This document shows positions 1,262 to 47,604 of a DNA stretch of 64,000 nt, piece after piece; the stretch's first letter is position 1; each line of letters begins with the position of its first letter. The stretch is from NCBI GenBank assembly GCA_015689775.1, contig WVSR01000001.1, positions 1 through 64,000 on the forward strand, in the 5' to 3' direction. A program made the position numbers and the translations under genes. The notes under the pieces are model-generated. The model did not search any database, was not told the origin of the DNA, and saw nothing but the letters and a program-made list of their open reading frames with translations. This DNA is from Rhodobacterales bacterium LSUCC0387 (GTDB taxonomy: Bacteria; Pseudomonadota; Alphaproteobacteria; Rhodobacterales; Rhodobacteraceae).

Positions 1262-3385
<2,124 letters not shown>

Positions 3386-5459: not shown

Positions 5460-5602
5460 AAACCGCGCTCCTTGGTGGTCTGAGTGGAAATCTAGGCTCA
5501 GTCATCGTCACTATTAGGTTCACTTTCGCGCAATCCCGCAAGCGCAGCAAGGGTCTTGATCGGTTGCAAGGCGAAGCGGTCGTGCATCAGGAAAGAGGCG
5601 GT

Positions 5603-27170: not shown

Positions 27171-27995
27171 CTACAGCTTGAGGATTTTCTCTGAGAGGTC
27201 ACGCGCCGCGCGGAGATGGATATCAGGCCCAAGCAAAGCCCACGCTACTTTCTCCTCTCCCAACCCAAAGAACATACCCCGCGTTGGTTTTTCTTGTTCC
27301 TCACGCGTTGTCACGCAGATCGTCAATGAGGCCGCTTGCGCAGCAATTTCTTCCAACATTCCTTTGGTTACGAAAAGCGGGTCTGGCCCCAACTCACGAC
27401 AATAGCCCGTTTCCGCAGGCGGGCCGTGTCCGATCCATAGCAACTGAACAGGGCAAATGGCGCGGTTCAAAAGGCTGCGCATACGCGCCATTCAAGCCAT
27501 CTTTAATTCATCCACAACGATCTGAAACCGATCTTCGGAACAGGTGAAAAGATGTTCCAACATATGGCGCGAGAAGTGAAAATCTGTGAAATCAAACTCG
27601 CGATAGATTACTCGCAATATGTCAGAGGGTTGCAGGAACCTATCATTGCGGCGTGGATGCACCTGATAGAAGCGGTTGGTCAGGTGATGCACACCTGTAA
27701 TTTGCAAAACAATCGCCTCGGCCCTGCTCATCACATCTACAATGGCCCCACCGCCAAGCGCCAATTCCAACCCCGCATTCATTGCGGCCATATTTGCCAC
27801 AGGGCGCCCCAACGCCACCAACAAGCGTTCAGGATAGGGCTGCTGCACGAATTTGCCGAATGTCTCAGAGCCGCCCAAACACAGCAAAAACGGCTTGGTT
27901 AGATCAATTTGCGGCCCACGAAACCACATCTGTGACCCCTCATAGGTCACAACTTTATAATCGAGGGGGCCATGCCCCTTGAAGGCAAAGCTCAT
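27171..27995 (-). pseudogene. DUF6473-type gene split by an in-frame TGA
   Basis: Two minus-strand frames, 27492-27995 (167 aa) and 27171-27491 (106 aa), are contiguous and in the same phase. They are separated only by TGA at 27492-27494, directly followed by ATG (TGAATG). Joined, they give 274 residues, about the length of the Rhodobacteraceae DUF6473 family. Family-like segments lie on both sides (GGSETFGKFVQQPYPERL, HPRRNDRFLQPSDILRVIYRE, then LLWIGHGPP). Where family members tend to have Trp, this sequence has TGA, which suggests TGG-to-TGA. It may be dead, or the second half may be made by re-initiation at the overlapping ATG. GGGAG precedes the first start. Function unknown. Confidence 0.72.
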
Positions 27996-30056: not shown

Positions 30057-30335
30057 TTAACGGCCTTCGCCAAATTTATCTGCGACAAGCTCCATCAGCG
30101 CCCCTGCCAAAGATTGCGCTTGAGTGCCGGTTGTTTCAACCTCAATTTCAGTGCCAATCGAAGCTGCAAGCATCAAAAGGCCCATAATCGAGCCGCCCGA
30201 AGCAGAAATGCCATCTTTGCTCACTGTCGCTTCGGCATCGAATTTTTCGACTGTTTCGACAAATTTTGCGGAGGCCCGCGCGTGTAGGCCTTTTTCATTC
30301 ACGATTTTCAAAACGCAGCGCACCGTCTCGGTCAT
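30057..30335 (-). CDS. ptsH: HPr phosphocarrier protein
   Basis: 92 aa. The phosphorylated His18 is in KGLHARAS, and a Ser49 site for HPr kinase lies in GGSIMGLLML. It overlaps the EIIA stop by four bases (ATGA). No sugar-permease PTS genes are near, so this is the regulatory PTS seen in many alphaproteobacteria, and HprK is encoded in the same cluster. Confidence 0.95.
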   Translation of the reverse strand: MTETVRCVLKIVNEKGLHARASAKFVETVEKFDAEATVSKDGISASGGSIMGLLMLAASIGTEIEVETTGTQAQSLAGALMELVADKFGEGR

Positions 30336-30724
30336 TCAGGGGTTCCATCAAAGCTGTTAATATAGCGCCGCCCCGCCTCGGTGGCGCGCGCCACCGCTTG
30401 ATCCAAGGGCAAATGGCGCGATTTGGCCAATTTGATCAGCATCGGCAGATTAACACCGGTCAGAATTTTGCGGTTAGCACTGCTGCACGCTGGCAAAGAT
30501 AAGTTTGAGGGCGAGCCACCATACATATCGGTGACCACAACCACGCCATAGCCTTTATCCACCGCATCTGCGGCAGCAGCAATATCGCGTTGGCAGGTGG
30601 CGCGGTCATCTTCGGGGCCAATGGGGATCGCGCGGGCCGCATGAACAGGCCCGACCACATGTTCAGTGGCGGCCAACAATTCGCGGGCCAATCCACCATG
30701 TGCAACGATAACAATCCCTATCAC
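30332..30724 (-). CDS. PTS EIIA component, mannose family
   Basis: 130 aa starting with GTG at 30724 (MIGIVIVAHGG) with AGGG eight bases upstream; an earlier TTG (30730) lies too close to the ribosome site. The active His9 is in VAHGG. No EIIB or EIIC partners occur nearby, so it is probably a regulatory EIIA that takes phosphate from HPr. It overlaps ptsH and follows rapZ by 20 bases. Confidence 0.93.
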   Translation of the reverse strand: MIGIVIVAHGGLARELLAATEHVVGPVHAARAIPIGPEDDRATCQRDIAAAADAVDKGYGVVVVTDMYGGSPSNLSLPACSSANRKILTGVNLPMLIKLAKSRHLPLDQAVARATEAGRRYINSFDGTPE

Positions 30725-30744
30725 CCGCAAGACCCTATTGTATT

Positions 30745-31674
30745 TCAGGGCGTGGCGATAAGGCCGCGCCGCTCCAATTCTCTATGACGTTTTGACACTT
30801 GCCAGCCCGCTTGTGCAAGGTGGCTTACGATGATTTCTGTCATTGCAACAGAGCGGTGTTGCCCACCCGTGCATCCAAACGCAACTGTCAGATGCGTTTT
30901 TCCTTCGTCAACATAAGCAGGAAGGAGCGTTTCAATCAGTCCCAAGACTTGGTTAGAAAAGGGTGCGAACCGCGGATCTTTGGCAATGAAATCGCGCACG
31001 GCTTGGTCGCGCCCATCACATTGGCGCAGATCATCTTGCCAATATGGATTTTCCAAAAAGCGACAGTCAAACACCATATCAGCGCCAGTCGGCAGACCAC
31101 GCTTATAAGAAAAGCTTTGGATCGTCAGCGCCAAACGATGCGGGGTTGTTGCGCTGAAATGGCGCGCAATCTCCTCACGCAACTCATGCGGGCTAAGGGT
31201 GCTGGTATCGATCAAACTTGTGGCGCGGGCGCGCACAGGGCTAAGCAATTCCTTCTCACGGCGTATGCCCGTCAGTGTATCCTCAGCGGGGGCCATTGGA
31301 TGGCGCCGCCGCGTCTCTGAAAAGCGGCGGACAATAACATCATCGGCGCAGTCGAGATAAACCAATTCGGATAAAACCTGCTCGTGCACCGCCAACCCAT
31401 CGACCGCAGCAATCAATGCCTGTGCAGAAAAATCGCGGTTGCGCGGATCCGTGCCCAGTGCCAGAGGCCGCGTCAAAGGTGGGCCTTCCAATAGGCGGGG
31501 CAAGAGCGACAGTGGCAGGTTGTCAATCGCCTCGTATCCCAAATCCTCTAACGTATGGATAGCGCTGCTGCGGCCCGCACCAGACGGCCCTGTGACAAAG
31601 ACCACCCGTTGCGCCTCGTCATCTCCCGAGGAGCGCGTGTGAGTTGGGTGGCCTGTTTTATCTTCGCGATCCAT
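30745..31674 (-). CDS. rapZ: RNase adapter/nucleotide-binding protein RapZ
   Basis: 309 aa. The Walker A-like motif is GPSGAGRSS (residues about 29-37), with Arg in place of the usual Lys. The C-terminal domain carries the family's GCTGGQHRSVAMTE segment, which in E. coli RapZ binds RNA and controls glmS through small RNAs. Whether that pathway exists here is unknown. It lies between hprK and the EIIA gene. Confidence 0.94.
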   Translation of the reverse strand: MDREDKTGHPTHTRSSGDDEAQRVVFVTGPSGAGRSSAIHTLEDLGYEAIDNLPLSLLPRLLEGPPLTRPLALGTDPRNRDFSAQALIAAVDGLAVHEQVLSELVYLDCADDVIVRRFSETRRRHPMAPAEDTLTGIRREKELLSPVRARATSLIDTSTLSPHELREEIARHFSATTPHRLALTIQSFSYKRGLPTGADMVFDCRFLENPYWQDDLRQCDGRDQAVRDFIAKDPRFAPFSNQVLGLIETLLPAYVDEGKTHLTVAFGCTGGQHRSVAMTEIIVSHLAQAGWQVSKRHRELERRGLIATP

Positions 31675-31752: not shown

Positions 31753-32244
31753 TTACGTGAGCGGGGCGAAGCCATGTCGCAGGGCGTGAACCACCGCGTT
31801 GGCCTGCGGAACGCGCGCATTGACGCTCAAAAGACGCGCAAAATGCCCGCGCCACATCGCCATGCAGGTGGCGGGCAGGCGTGGCTGCCGCGTGTCTTGC
31901 AAATATAAGACAAGCGCAAGGGGCGCGCGATCCACCAATGGCCCTGCATTCAATAGCCCAATCCCCCAAGCCTCAATCATCGGCAAGCGTTCGGGGGGCG
32001 CGCGCAAGGTTAAACCTTCGGCATCTGCCTCAAGCAGGATCGCGTCATCGCAGATCAACTCTGCACCAAAAGCCATCAAATCAAGCGCAAGCGAGGATTT
32101 GCCTGCGCCGGATGACCCCAAGATAAGCACTCCCTGCCCTTCATACGCCACCGCCGTGGCATGCAAACGCAGCGCAGCGCCGAGCATATGGCCAAACTGC
32201 GCCAAATCGAACTCATTGGCGAAATCCCCACGATCCTCAGCCAT
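31753..32244 (-). CDS. hprK: HPr kinase/phosphorylase, short alphaproteobacterial form
   Basis: 163 aa. It has only the catalytic domain and lacks the N-terminal half of the Gram-positive enzyme, as usual in alphaproteobacteria. Walker A GSSGAGKS is at residues 43-50; the following LICDDAILLEA and IEAWGIGLLN segments fit the family. It would phosphorylate HPr on Ser49. It is preceded by the chvG remnant three bases away. Confidence 0.92.
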   Translation of the reverse strand: MAEDRGDFANEFDLAQFGHMLGAALRLHATAVAYEGQGVLILGSSGAGKSSLALDLMAFGAELICDDAILLEADAEGLTLRAPPERLPMIEAWGIGLLNAGPLVDRAPLALVLYLQDTRQPRLPATCMAMWRGHFARLLSVNARVPQANAVVHALRHGFAPLT

Positions 32245-32247
32245 AGA

Positions 32248-33164
32248 TTAAATAGGCAAGCCCGCGATGAACCGCGCACCAAGCGGGTCGGCGGTGACAT
32301 CAGAGTCAGTGGGACGAATATTTTCAGCCCAGATCATCCCACCATGCGCCTCAACAATCTGCTTGGAAAGCGCAAGGCCTAGGCCCGAATGGTTTCCAAA
32401 CTGCGCTTGGGGCCGCTCAGAATAGAAACGGGTGAAAACTTTTGTTAGCGCATCATCAGGGATGTCTGGCCCTGTACCTTCTACCACTACCAAAATGCGA
32501 TCCTCTCTTTTGCGCGCCCAGATGCAGACGGCACTCCCAGCATCGCAGAAAGCCAAGGCATTGGACAAGAGGTTGGCAGACACCTGCCCCAAACGCTCCT
32601 CCAGCCCGGTGATGAGGATGGGCGCATCTGACAAATCCGTGATGAAACTCACATCTTTCGCGCGCGCCTCGTACGCGTGATAGCCGCAGATATTGCGCAA
32701 GGTTCGCAGAATATCGAATTCTTCTTCCTCCTCGTGACCAAATCAGCATCTAAGCGCGAGGCATTCGAAATATCTGGCACAAGCCTGTCCAATAGTTGCA
32801 CATCATGGGTGATCACCTCATAGAGCCTGCTGGGTTGATCATCCGTATTGGCGCGCTGCAAAGTGCTGACCGCTGACCACAAACTGGCCAATGGGTTTTT
32901 GATCTCATGGCTGATATCTGCGGCAAACTGCTGGTTTGAACCAATCCGATCATAGAGCGCGCCCACCATACCACGCAGGGCCGCAGATAGGCGGCCTATT
33001 TCATCGGGCCTCCCCGTCAGATCAGGGATGCGCACACGGGTGGGGCTGAGCTTGCGGGCATTTTTATCGCGGCCCAGTTCGGCTGCATCGGCCAAATTGG
33101 ACAGAGGGTTGGCAGCGGTTGAGGCCAAGACAAGTGACAAAACAATCGAAATATTTCGAATCAC
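32248..33164 (-). pseudogene. Degenerate chvG-type sensor histidine kinase remnant
   Basis: Two overlapping frames make up the cytoplasmic half of a ChvG-like kinase. The upstream frame (32649-33164) holds a hydrophobic segment, HAMP and the H-box FAADISHEIKNPLASL. The downstream frame (32248-32700) holds the N-box NLLSNAL and the ATPase end. They join only through a one-base shift near 32728-32742, in a GA-rich run. The first membrane helix and periplasmic sensor (about 200-250 residues) are absent, and a TAA lies in phase upstream near 33211. The G1 box reads EGTGPDIP instead of a DxGPGIP-type motif. The chvI regulator, normally between chvG and pckA, is missing. The kinase is almost certainly non-functional. 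Confidence 0.85.
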
Positions 33165-33208
33165 GGTTTTTCTGCGGCCAGAATGTGGCTTCGGCGTGTG
33201 GACGAACC

Positions 33209-33275
33209 GTTAGCGCCTCAACAAATCGGGCCAGTTCGACAAAATTTATCCAATCAGGGAAATGGTTGCGCTAAC
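33209..33275. promoter_or_regulatory. Inverted GTTAGCGC/GCGCTAAC boxes upstream of pckA
   Basis: GTTAGCGC (33209-33216) and its exact reverse complement GCGCTAAC (33268-33275) flank a 51-base stretch in the 242-base gap before pckA. LacI-family regulators often bind cores of this type. The pairing could be operator DNA for pckA or chance. No gene was seen in the rest of this gap. Confidence 0.35.
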
Positions 33276-33406
33276 TGTGCGTATGCGTCCTGTTCAGTAA
33301 TAAAACCGTCATGTTATACGGGACTTACGTGGGGTTGAGTGCAGCTCTGTTCCCGCGTTGATTTTCATCACTGCCGTGCAGCATCGGCACAGGAGCACAA
33401 GAGAAC

Positions 33407-35005
33407 ATGAGCACAGGACGCGTGAACCCCGCCCATCGGCTGGAGCATCAAGGCATTTCGGATCTGGGCCAGGTTCACTATAACCTGCTTGAACCTGCAC
33501 TGATCCAAGCCGCTTTGACCCGCAATGAGGGTCGCCTTGGCAACGGCGGCACTCTTTTGGTCAGTACGGGAAAATATACGGGCCGCTCCCCTAAAGATAA
33601 ATTCGTTGTCGCAACCCCTTCGGTCAAGCCGCATGTCTGGTGGGACAACAACGCCCGCATGGAAATAGATGCCTTCGATCGCCTCTATTCCGACATGGTC
33701 GCGCATATGAAGGACGGCGAATATTTCGTGCAAGATCTCTACGCGGGTGCGGATGCGGATCACCGCCTTGATGTGCGCGTAATCTCAGAACTGGCATGGC
33801 ACAACCTGTTCATCCGTCACCTGCTGCGCCGCCCATCGCGCACAGAAGTGGACAGCTTTGTTCCCGAATTCACAATCATCAACTGCCCCAGCTTTAAGGC
33901 CGATCCTGCAAAACATGGCTGCTGCACGGATACCGTGATCGCCCTGAATTTTGACAAAAAACTGATTTTGATCGGCGGCACCGAATATGCGGGCGAAAAT
34001 AAGAAGTCTGTTTTCACCTTGCTGAACTATTTCTTACCTGAGAAAGGCGTCATGCCGATGCATTGCTCGGCAAATCACGCCACTGGCAACCCTGATGATA
34101 GCGCGGTGTTCTTTGGTCTTTCTGGCACAGGGAAAACCACACTATCCGCTGATCCTGCCCGCGTGTTGATTGGTGATGATGAGCATGGATGGTCGGAAAA
34201 TGGAATCTTCAATTTTGAGGGTGGCTGTTACGCCAAGACCATCAACCTACGCAAAGAAGCCGAACCAGAAATCTACGCCACGACCCACACTTTCGGCACT
34301 GTGATCGAAAATATGGTCTATGACGAAGAAACGCTTAAGCTTGATTTTGACGATGCAAGCCTGACGGCGAATACCCGTTGCGCATATCCGTTGCAGCAGA
34401 TCTCAAACGCATCCAACACAGGGCTTGGAGGGCATCCGAAAAATATAATCATGCTGACCTGTGATGCTTTTGGTGTTTTGCCTCCGATTGCGCGCCTGAC
34501 CCCTGCGCAGGCGATGTATCATTTCTTGTCAGGTTTCACCTCTAAGGTTGCAGGCACAGAGCGCGGCGTGACCGAGCCAGAGCCAACCTTTTCAACCTGT
34601 TTTGGCGCCCCCTTCATGCCGCGCCGGCCTGAGGTCTATGGTAACCTTCTGCGCGAAAAAATCGCCACTTACGGGTCGACCTGCTGGCTTGTGAACACTG
34701 GCTGGACGGGCGGAGCCTATGGCACAGGGTCGCGCATGCCCATCAAAGCAACCCGCGTCCTTTTGACCGCGGCACTGGATGGGTCACTCGATCAAGGCCA
34801 ATTCCGCAAAGATCGTAATTTCGGGTTTGAAGTGCCTGTCAGCCTTAAAGGGGTGGATGACGCCCTGCTTGATCCACGCAGCACATGGTCAGATGGCGCA
34901 GCCTATGATGCACAGGCCGCAAAATTGGTTGGAATGTTCGCCAATAACTTCGCGCAATATGTGCCCTATATAGACGAAGACGTAAAAGCAGCCGCGATCA
35001 GCTAA
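33407..35005 (+). CDS. pckA: Phosphoenolpyruvate carboxykinase (ATP)
   Basis: 532 aa. Converts oxaloacetate and ATP to phosphoenolpyruvate, the first step of gluconeogenesis. It carries the P-loop [11 protein letters not shown], the adjacent kinase-2 metal site (IGDDEHGW) and the substrate loop TGRSPKDKF. The Arg-rich RMPIKATR segment is near residue 445. AGGAG lies upstream of the ATG at 33407. In related genomes the opposite-strand neighbour is chvI; here the neighbour is the chvG remnant. A terminator follows at 35031. Confidence 0.97.
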
Positions 35006-45794: not shown

Positions 45795-46148
45795 TTAGTT
45801 CTGCCCCTGCGCTTCTAGCAGGGCACGCAACATCTGTTCTTCGGTCATGTCATCCACTTGTGGACGATCCTGATCGGCGCTGTGCAGCAATGTCATCGTG
45901 TCTTCTTCAGGCTCATCAACCTCAATCTGGGATTGATGCGATTCAATGAAACGTTCGCGCAGGCCATCTGCGGATTGTGTCTCTTCTGCGATCTCACGCA
46001 AAGCAACAACTGCATTCTTGTCATTGTCGCGATCCACAGTAAGAGGCGAGCCAGACGCCATCTCACGGGCGCGATGTGCAGCAAGCATCACCAATTCAAA
46101 GCGGTTGGGAACCTTGTCTACGCAATCTTCTACCGTCACGCGGGCCAT
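45795..46148 (-). CDS. rpoZ: RNA polymerase omega subunit
   Basis: 117 aa from [22 protein letters not shown] at 46148; the frame is open to 46346, but the extra 66 residues have no family support. The conserved omega core occupies residues 1-65. The acidic tail is typical of alphaproteobacterial omega. In E. coli omega binds ppGpp, which makes its pairing with rel noteworthy. Confidence 0.96.
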
Positions 46149-46242
46149 ACTAAACTCTCCAGAGCTGATTAAGGGAGGGGCGCAAGCTTCGTCAATAGTC
46201 AGACCGGCCCCGAAATACAAGTGCAAAAGACCGCGTGTATCC

Positions 46243-46842
46243 TTACAGTGGATGGATCTCAAGGCACGCCTCGGGCGGCAATTTTGCGCGCAGTTCGGCA
46301 ACCGTTTCGCCAAGGGTCGGATGGTACCAATTTGGGGCGACATCACACAGCGGAATTAAAACGAAGCCGCGCTCAGCCATACGGGGATGAGGCAAAATCA
46401 ATTGATCAGGGGCGCGCGATTGTGCCTCTTGTGTCGAGAGATTGGCCCAAACTTGCCACGTATCTGGATCTGGCAAAACCAAATCGCCGAGGCCCAAAAG
46501 ATCCAAATCCAACCCGCGCGCAGCCCAGCGTTGTAAACGGCTGCGGCCAAAATCAGCCTCTATCGCATGCAGCTTTTCCAACAACGGATTTGGACCCAAT
46601 CGCCAGTCAAACGAGATTGCAGCATTTACAAAGTCAGGGCCAGAACCCACAGGAAATGCAGGAGTTTGATAAAACTGGCTCAGCTTGAAATCGCCACCCC
46701 CCTTTGCGGTCACATAGTCATACAACTGTGCAATCGTACGATCCAAAACTACACGCGGCGCCTGCCCATCGACAGGTAGATTTGAGCCAAGCGCAATAAG
46801 TGCTTTTCGCGGCTCTGCATCAGAAAGGAAAACTTGCGCCAA
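46243..46842 (-). CDS. folK: HPPK (6-hydroxymethyl-7,8-dihydropterin pyrophosphokinase)
   Basis: 199 aa. Folate synthesis enzyme. The family signature [15 protein letters not shown] lies near residue 107, and ALIALGSNL near residue 15. The start is assigned to TTG at 46842 since no ATG or GTG occurs before the first conserved motif. The Shine-Dalgarno is weak, so the start is less certain. Confidence 0.93.
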
Positions 46843-47506: not shown

Positions 47507-47604
47507 GTTGGCTTGCTTGAGGCATCTGGACTGGTGGCGCTCAGGCAGAAACGCTAGACGGCGGGGCCACAAAGACTTAACTGTGGGGTGATTGGAGAGA
47601 TACT

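Follow-up and report, generated by a model that had tools for sequence, protein, structure and literature searches.

The window analyzed here comprises the first 64,000 nucleotides of contig 1 of Rhodobacterales bacterium LSUCC0387, whose 2.51-Mb genome is assembled in 5 contigs, with 99.96% completeness and 0.06% contamination. Its forward strand carries an intact pckA gene for ATP-dependent PEP carboxykinase (33407..35005; 964.9 bits against NF006822, cut-off 806). The reverse strand encodes a set of PTS-related proteins: a short alphaproteobacterial HPr kinase (hprK, 31753..32244; Pfam domain Hpr_kinase_C), RapZ (rapZ, 30745..31674), a mannose-type EIIA (30332..30730; EIIA-man), and HPr (30057..30335; PTS-HPr). 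The earlier note on this DNA had described the HprK-RapZ-EIIA-HPr module as intact, and all four reading frames are indeed open and contain Pfam domains. Between hprK and pckA lies what is left of a chvG gene (32248-33152, reverse strand), a HAMP-HisKA-HATPase sequence whose reading frame is shifted by 1 base and whose G1 box is broken. It is followed by a kept intergenic stretch (33153..33406), the former upstream region of chvI and pckA, which can be aligned to the corresponding DNA of three congeners (G001, G002, and G003).

The chvG remnant falls into two pieces, both on the reverse strand. Piece 1 (32724..33152, frame 1) covers the end of the second transmembrane segment, the HAMP domain, and the HisKA domain with its phospho-acceptor His in the segment SHEIKNPL. 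Piece 2 (32254..32736, frame 2, past the frameshift) covers the HATPase_c domain. They match positions 239-376 (E = 3.7e-36, 124.4 bits) and 373-532 (E = 2.1e-32, 112.4 bits) of the 535 positions of the ChvG model NF058527. Both scores are below the curated full-length cut-off of this model (740 bits); the model was built from Caulobacter, only 1 of 14 control genomes passes that cut-off, and no intact roseobacter ChvG was scored on it. In Pfam, piece 1 is matched by HisKA (E = 8.8e-13), with HAMP below the cut-off, and piece 2 by HATPase_c (E = 1.3e-18).

The loss of the sensor half, the frameshift in a GA-rich run, and the ruined G1 box, all claimed by the earlier note, are borne out by comparison with the congeners. 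The match to NF058527 begins only at position 239, the junction corresponds to codon 274 of the G002 chvG, and the first transmembrane segment and the periplasmic sensor domain are deleted. One base is missing at 32736/32737 relative to the aligned sequences of G001, G002, and G003; the site lies within 32728-32742, the stretch singled out by the earlier note, where the GA run ends and other substitutions adjoin. The G1 box of the ATP-binding domain (approximately 32464..32481) reads EGTGPD, as opposed to EDTGPG in the three congeners. As a result of the frameshift and the altered G1 box, no intact set of ATP-binding boxes shares a reading frame with HisKA. Other motifs are still legible, namely SHEIKNPL, NLLSNAL, and GLGLA, which we take to be the H box, the N box, and G2, respectively. 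The remnant open reading frame begins at a GTG codon (33164) inside the junction. A sensor-less fragment could in principle be translated from that codon, but its reading frame would be lost ahead of the ATP-binding domain.

Compared to G002, the closest relative analyzed, the window lacks 1,603 bp that are flanked by two copies of ATTTCGATTG. In G002, one copy is located upstream of chvI and the other in chvG codons 274-277; in the window, the sole remaining copy of this 10-bp direct repeat marks the deletion site (33143..33152, reverse strand). The missing segment includes all of chvI and the first ~273 codons of chvG, that is, the sensor half, and leaves the pckA upstream region in place. 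Accordingly, no gene with a receiver or winged-helix domain is found between pckA and the chvG remnant, as the earlier note had said.

The match to the ChvG model and the position within a conserved pckA-chvI-chvG-hprK arrangement are what the remnant shares with the known ChvG-ChvI system (also described as ExoS-ChvI and BvrS-BvrR). Among the 47 genomes with a pckA match, 20 loci were fetched, 3 from congeners and 17 from other genera. In all 20, chvI is located between pckA and hprK, the place occupied by the remnant in the window, and chvG is open in 19. Of 35 loci recruited through RapZ, among them L065 and L097 from the genomes of G003 and G001, 34 contain a nearly complete chvG without any stop; the exception, L070, has no chvG. 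All three congeners retain chvI, and the G002 and G003 copies are 98% identical. The chvG gene is open in two of them, but that of G002 is interrupted by an in-frame TAG at codon 182, within the part encoding the sensor. Since the kinase half of the G002 protein remains constrained, either this stop is recent or internal initiation yields the kinase half; in both cases, the stop is probably a lesion separate from the one in the window. In the survey of the family, which scored four ChvG candidates per genome so that its misses are soft, no internal stop was seen among the ChvG matches listed.

A search of the whole genome did not reveal a replacement. It encodes four OmpR-type regulators (PF00486, all 7 candidates scored), none of which is ChvI. 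Of the 12 candidates for a congener ChvI query, all of which were scored, the best shows 37% identity and coincides with the PhoB gene. Eight other histidine kinases are matched by NF058527, and all of them span only its cytoplasmic part, so that none represents a second ChvG; seven share 26 to 32% identity with an intact ChvG in that part, and the match of the eighth (44%) extends over only 54 residues. An intact chvGI pair elsewhere, which according to the earlier note would make this locus a mere leftover copy, was therefore not found in this 99.96%-complete assembly.

Several other envelope-related regulators are retained. One response regulator resembles CenR, with Asp51 and Asp56 placed as in Rhodobacter sphaeroides CenR, going by the part of the description available (PMC9275681); the name rests on the placement of these residues and not on a direct comparison with RSP_0847. 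NtrY, with its NtrY_N domain, and PhoB, which scores over its cut-off, are also kept. The kinase at locus L002 is possibly PhoR. Basal envelope control could rest on the CenR-like regulator, NtrY, and PhoB.

The substitution pattern of the remnant is that of a pseudogene. Counts of nonsynonymous (N) and synonymous (S) changes were assigned to branches by parsimony with one or two outgroups, rather than by a likelihood test. With G003 as the outgroup and the junction codons excluded, the remnant has accumulated 31 N and 13 S changes over 298 codons on its own branch (ratio, 0.78), and a neutral share of N changes is not rejected. The homologous kinase half has 0 N and 8 S changes on the G002 branch with the same outgroup. 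When G001 serves as a second outgroup and the junction codons are counted too, these values become 35/13 for the own branch and 2/7 for that of G002 (Fisher p = 0.006). The remnant also differs from 38 neighboring genes, which together show 317 N and 730 S changes on the own branch (ratio, 0.139; Fisher p = 1.3e-7). On these branch counts, a functional kinase half is rejected. An error in a single run of bases cannot produce such a pattern, which points to an old loss rather than a misread; chvG probably lost constraint early on the own branch. With one genome per species, the extent of the neutral decay suggests that the deletion is fixed in the species.

The 38 neighboring genes themselves evolve under weaker constraint than in the sister lineage. 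Their ratio of 0.139 compares with 0.043 on the G002 branch (89 N, 659 S; Fisher p = 4e-21), so that the dN/dS of the proteins encoded in the window is about 3-fold above that of the sister. This set leaves out the chvG and chvI pieces, apparent antisense or overlapping open reading frames, and genes poorly covered in the three genomes; it includes the DUF6473 gene in spite of an internal stop in the window. The bias of GC-to-AT changes is also stronger on the own branch (651, versus 274 in reverse) than on that of G002 (377 versus 283). Sequence error was considered as a source of the high dN/dS and discarded: random errors should have produced about 9 internal stops in the 38 genes, and 1 is found, in the DUF6473 gene. 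These data point to weaker constraint in this stretch, which may well extend to the entire genome. A high dN/dS fits drift better than the streamlining of a large free-living population.

The PTS genes have been spared. On the own branch, the ratios are 0.06 for rapZ (3 N, 17 S), which is constrained, and 0.18 for the EIIA gene (3 N, 6 S). The hprK gene, which is outside the 38-gene set owing to the low identity (52%) of its G003 ortholog, has a ratio of 0.35 (9 N, 9 S) on the own branch and 0.47 (7 N, 5 S) on the G002 branch; there is no difference between the branches, and the gene evolves fast in both sister lineages.

The description of the chvGI loss as selective, offered by the earlier note on account of the spared PTS module, does not extend to the rest of the genome, where other signaling and surface genes are gone or damaged and where, judging from the 38 genes, purifying selection on proteins is generally weaker. 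The ctrA gene, present in G002 (where it scores over the cut-off), G003, and G014, has been removed by a deletion of ~1.1 kb (G000:C4:94315-94318, loci L141 and L143, as compared to L140:8481-9597, G000 being the genome of the window). Both sides of this segment in G002 carry the 9-bp sequence CCAAAGGCC near the break; a small adjacent difference leaves the exact breakpoint open. The chpT gene (L153, G000:C1 ~1294356, about 1415-2028, reverse strand) is out of frame and has an internal stop over the stretch that holds a His residue in G002, presumably the catalytic one, and it has a second frameshift near its 3' end. The damaged ChpT domain still scores 53.3 bits, above the Pfam cut-off; the gene is open in G002 and G003. 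Also gone is a 748-aa hybrid histidine kinase encoded by G001, G002, and G003; the junction of the ~2.5-kb deletion that removed it is at window positions 47507-47543. The identification of this kinase as CckA is not supported: NCBIfam yields nothing but generic designations of hybrid kinases, all scoring below cut-off, and the closest match in G014 shows 39% identity. No Tad-pilus ATPase scores above the cut-off in this genome (27 candidates scored); strong matches are found in G001, G002, G003, and G014, and the one in G002 lies in a Tad cluster. FlhA is not found in this genome, in G002, or in the 69%-complete G001, and is present in G003 and G014.

Three further observations concern other genes of the window. 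The DUF6473 gene (27174-27995, reverse strand) contains a single internal stop, is open in G002, and has an own-branch N/S ratio of 0.55. At 5578-5591, about 0.8 kb is missing relative to G002, including most of a putative rhamnosyltransferase gene (Rhamno_transf); the repeat at the ends is imprecise. A gene for a 183-aa protein (45798-46346, reverse strand) shows 14 N and 6 S changes on the own branch (ratio, 0.68) and is possibly decaying.

In the family as a whole, a ChvI match with E <= 1e-60 is found in 267 of 295 genomes (294 genera), including 240 of the 260 genomes of good quality, with at most 9 candidates scored per genome. Of the 28 genomes without such a match, 20 are listed, this one and 19 others. 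When these 19 were re-tested with all candidates scored, 18 had nothing above 40% identity. The remaining one, G203, has a chvI fragment with 85% identity over residues 2-101; at its locus (L130), chvI residues 1-100, the receiver part, are joined to chvG from about residue 489, with a further frame break. In G026 and G032, pckA directly adjoins hprK. G033 (L132) and L070 have a ChvI-like regulator (65%) beside hprK and no chvG at the locus, that is, an orphan regulator. Thus, G203, G026, G032, G033, and G002 have each lost one or both chvGI genes at the same locus as the window, with breakpoints that differ from the one described here. What is counted here are distinct types of lesions across genera, rather than independent losses on a tree. 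The 14 listed good-quality genomes without ChvI have a median size of 3.25 Mb, compared to 4.0 Mb in the first 60 of the 240 good-quality genomes that keep it (p = 0.03), a comparison from which eight ChvI-less genomes, six of them of good quality, are absent. Genome size as a driver of ChvI loss is weak, as several ChvI-less genomes are large (4.4-5.6 Mb).

A literature search, judged partly from titles and the beginnings of abstracts, returned no report of chvGI loss in Rhodobacteraceae among the papers listed; nor did it return a paper on genome reduction with relaxed selection in this family. ExoS/ChvI loci are described as conserved into Rhodobacterales, and the Sinorhizobium exoS gene as sharing its operon with PTS genes related to HPr, a gene order that is conserved across Rhizobiales, in the available text of one study (PMC4550343). 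In “Candidatus Liberibacter asiaticus” and “Candidatus Liberibacter solanacearum,” ChvGI is listed as absent along with other two-component systems (PMC3885570, consulted in part). As in Liberibacter, ChvGI has been lost from an alphaproteobacterium with a reduced genome, while a close relative is intact; the difference is that the genome described here is 2.5 Mb in size and that the deletion scar and the remnant can still be read.

What such a loss entails can be gauged from mutants, as far as the consulted parts of two reports go. In Caulobacter crescentus, chvIG mutants show defects in minimal medium and upon osmotic stress. Caulobacter ChvG without residues 1-274 does not support growth in M2G, the same phenotype as that of the deletion of the catalytic part (PMC9731502). 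The loss of ChvGI is therefore likely to be costly, and a kinase lacking the sensor half is unlikely to be of any use. Conversely, Phaeobacter inhibens chvI and chvG insertion mutants were recovered alive and resist phage (PMC7643831), so both genes are dispensable in at least one roseobacter. The loci of resistance to phage MD18 in P. inhibens comprise pilus genes, chvI/chvG, and cell division genes, with chvI/chvG termed the most potent. The view of the earlier note that envelope control must be rewired here is thus too strong: ChvI is without a match at E <= 1e-60 in 28 of 295 family genomes, the P. inhibens mutants are alive, and the CenR-like, NtrY, and PhoB genes remain, so that rewiring is not required.

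Taken together, these data make it very probable that the remnant is a pseudogene left by the loss of ChvG-ChvI through a deletion at a repeat, tolerated in a lineage with weak selection on signaling genes. Comparison with the relatives shows the following course. After the split from G002, the 1,603 bp between the ATTTCGATTG copies were deleted, presumably when replication slipped or illegitimate recombination took place at this short repeat, and chvI was lost along with the sensor half of chvG. What remained of the kinase gathered substitutions at a nearly neutral rate and lost one base and its G1 box. The deletion may have been tolerated because the pckA upstream region was spared, the hprK-rapZ-EIIA-HPr genes were left behind the former chvI upstream region, and selection on signaling genes was weak, a weakness to which the loss of ctrA, of a working chpT, of the hybrid kinase, and of the Tad-pilus ATPase would also belong. 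Effects on hprK, through its promoter or by polarity, are conceivable. In contrast to a working ChvG-ChvI system, the window holds neither chvI nor the sensor half of chvG, and its kinase half is a neutrally evolving pseudogene.

Other explanations of the same locus fare less well. That ChvG-ChvI was shed for an advantage, for instance under phage pressure and along with Tad pili and the CtrA relay, is unlikely, though the likeliest of these alternatives. The mapping of MD18 resistance in P. inhibens to both pilus genes and chvI/chvG (PMC7643831, as far as consulted) agrees with the absence of both ChvGI and the Tad ATPase here, and the separate chvG stop in G002, in a gene that still shows constraint over its kinase half (0 N, 8 S), and the differing chvGI lesions in other genera would fit repeated benefits of inactivation. 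However, the relaxed selection over 38 genes and the decay of other genes explain the losses without any advantage, and G002 keeps both the Tad cluster and CtrA. A scheme that goes further is more doubtful still: a linked program for life on surfaces would have been dismantled, partly by short-repeat deletions, with flagella lost first, since FlhA is not found in G002 either, followed by ChvG-ChvI, the CtrA-ChpT relay, the hybrid kinase, and Tad. ChvGI and Tad would then be two arms of one route of phage entry and attachment, as the P. inhibens resistance loci suggest, which would favor the loss of ChvGI, and chvGI losses in Rhodobacteraceae would be repeated and adaptive. If this were true, the other broken chvGI loci of the family and the stop in the sister would have to be counted among such adaptive losses.

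Improbable to a greater degree is an inactivation older than the split, in which the G002 stop would be ancestral and the deletion in the window a later event. The window lacks the region of codon 182, so its former state cannot be read, and the sensor half of the G002 chvG shows a ratio of 0.19 against 0.09 for its kinase half (relative to G001/G003). Sensor domains are often less constrained, which tempers this difference, and the 0 N / 8 S pattern of the G002 kinase half speaks against neutral evolution, under which the chance of no N change among eight is about 1e-5. An artefact of assembly or sequencing has very little to commend it beyond the fact that the lesion is seen in one genome only, given that no assembly slip produces a 1.6-kb deletion bounded by repeats plus 31 nonsynonymous changes spread across the remnant, and that the assembly, with its 5 contigs and its near-complete, barely contaminated content, has 1 internal stop in 38 neighboring genes. 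Least credible of all is a rewired system in which the kinase half continues to be produced and acts on a different regulator: the legible HAMP and HisKA regions with the His residue, the N box, the G2 motif, and the open reading frame that starts at the junction GTG would allow it, but it is contradicted by the frameshift, the broken G1 box, the neutral substitutions, and the failure to find ChvI in the genome.

The remnant is thus a pseudogene of a known system and a further example of a type of loss already known. Its value lies in a clearly legible scar, in a clock that runs at the neutral rate, and in a sister that carries a lesion of its own. The likely consequence for this organism is the loss of the stress response of the ChvI regulon, with basal envelope control left to the CenR-like regulator and NtrYX. 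The case also carries a warning: the branch-wide rate of decay should be measured before a single missing regulator is read as evidence of rewiring. ChvG-ChvI is usually treated as a conserved envelope stress system of alphaproteobacteria. The readable scar in this genome, the intact congener G003, the lesioned sister G002, and the differently broken loci elsewhere in the family form a natural series, in which one can ask what ChvG-ChvI serves and whether its loss accompanies that of the Tad pilus and CtrA.
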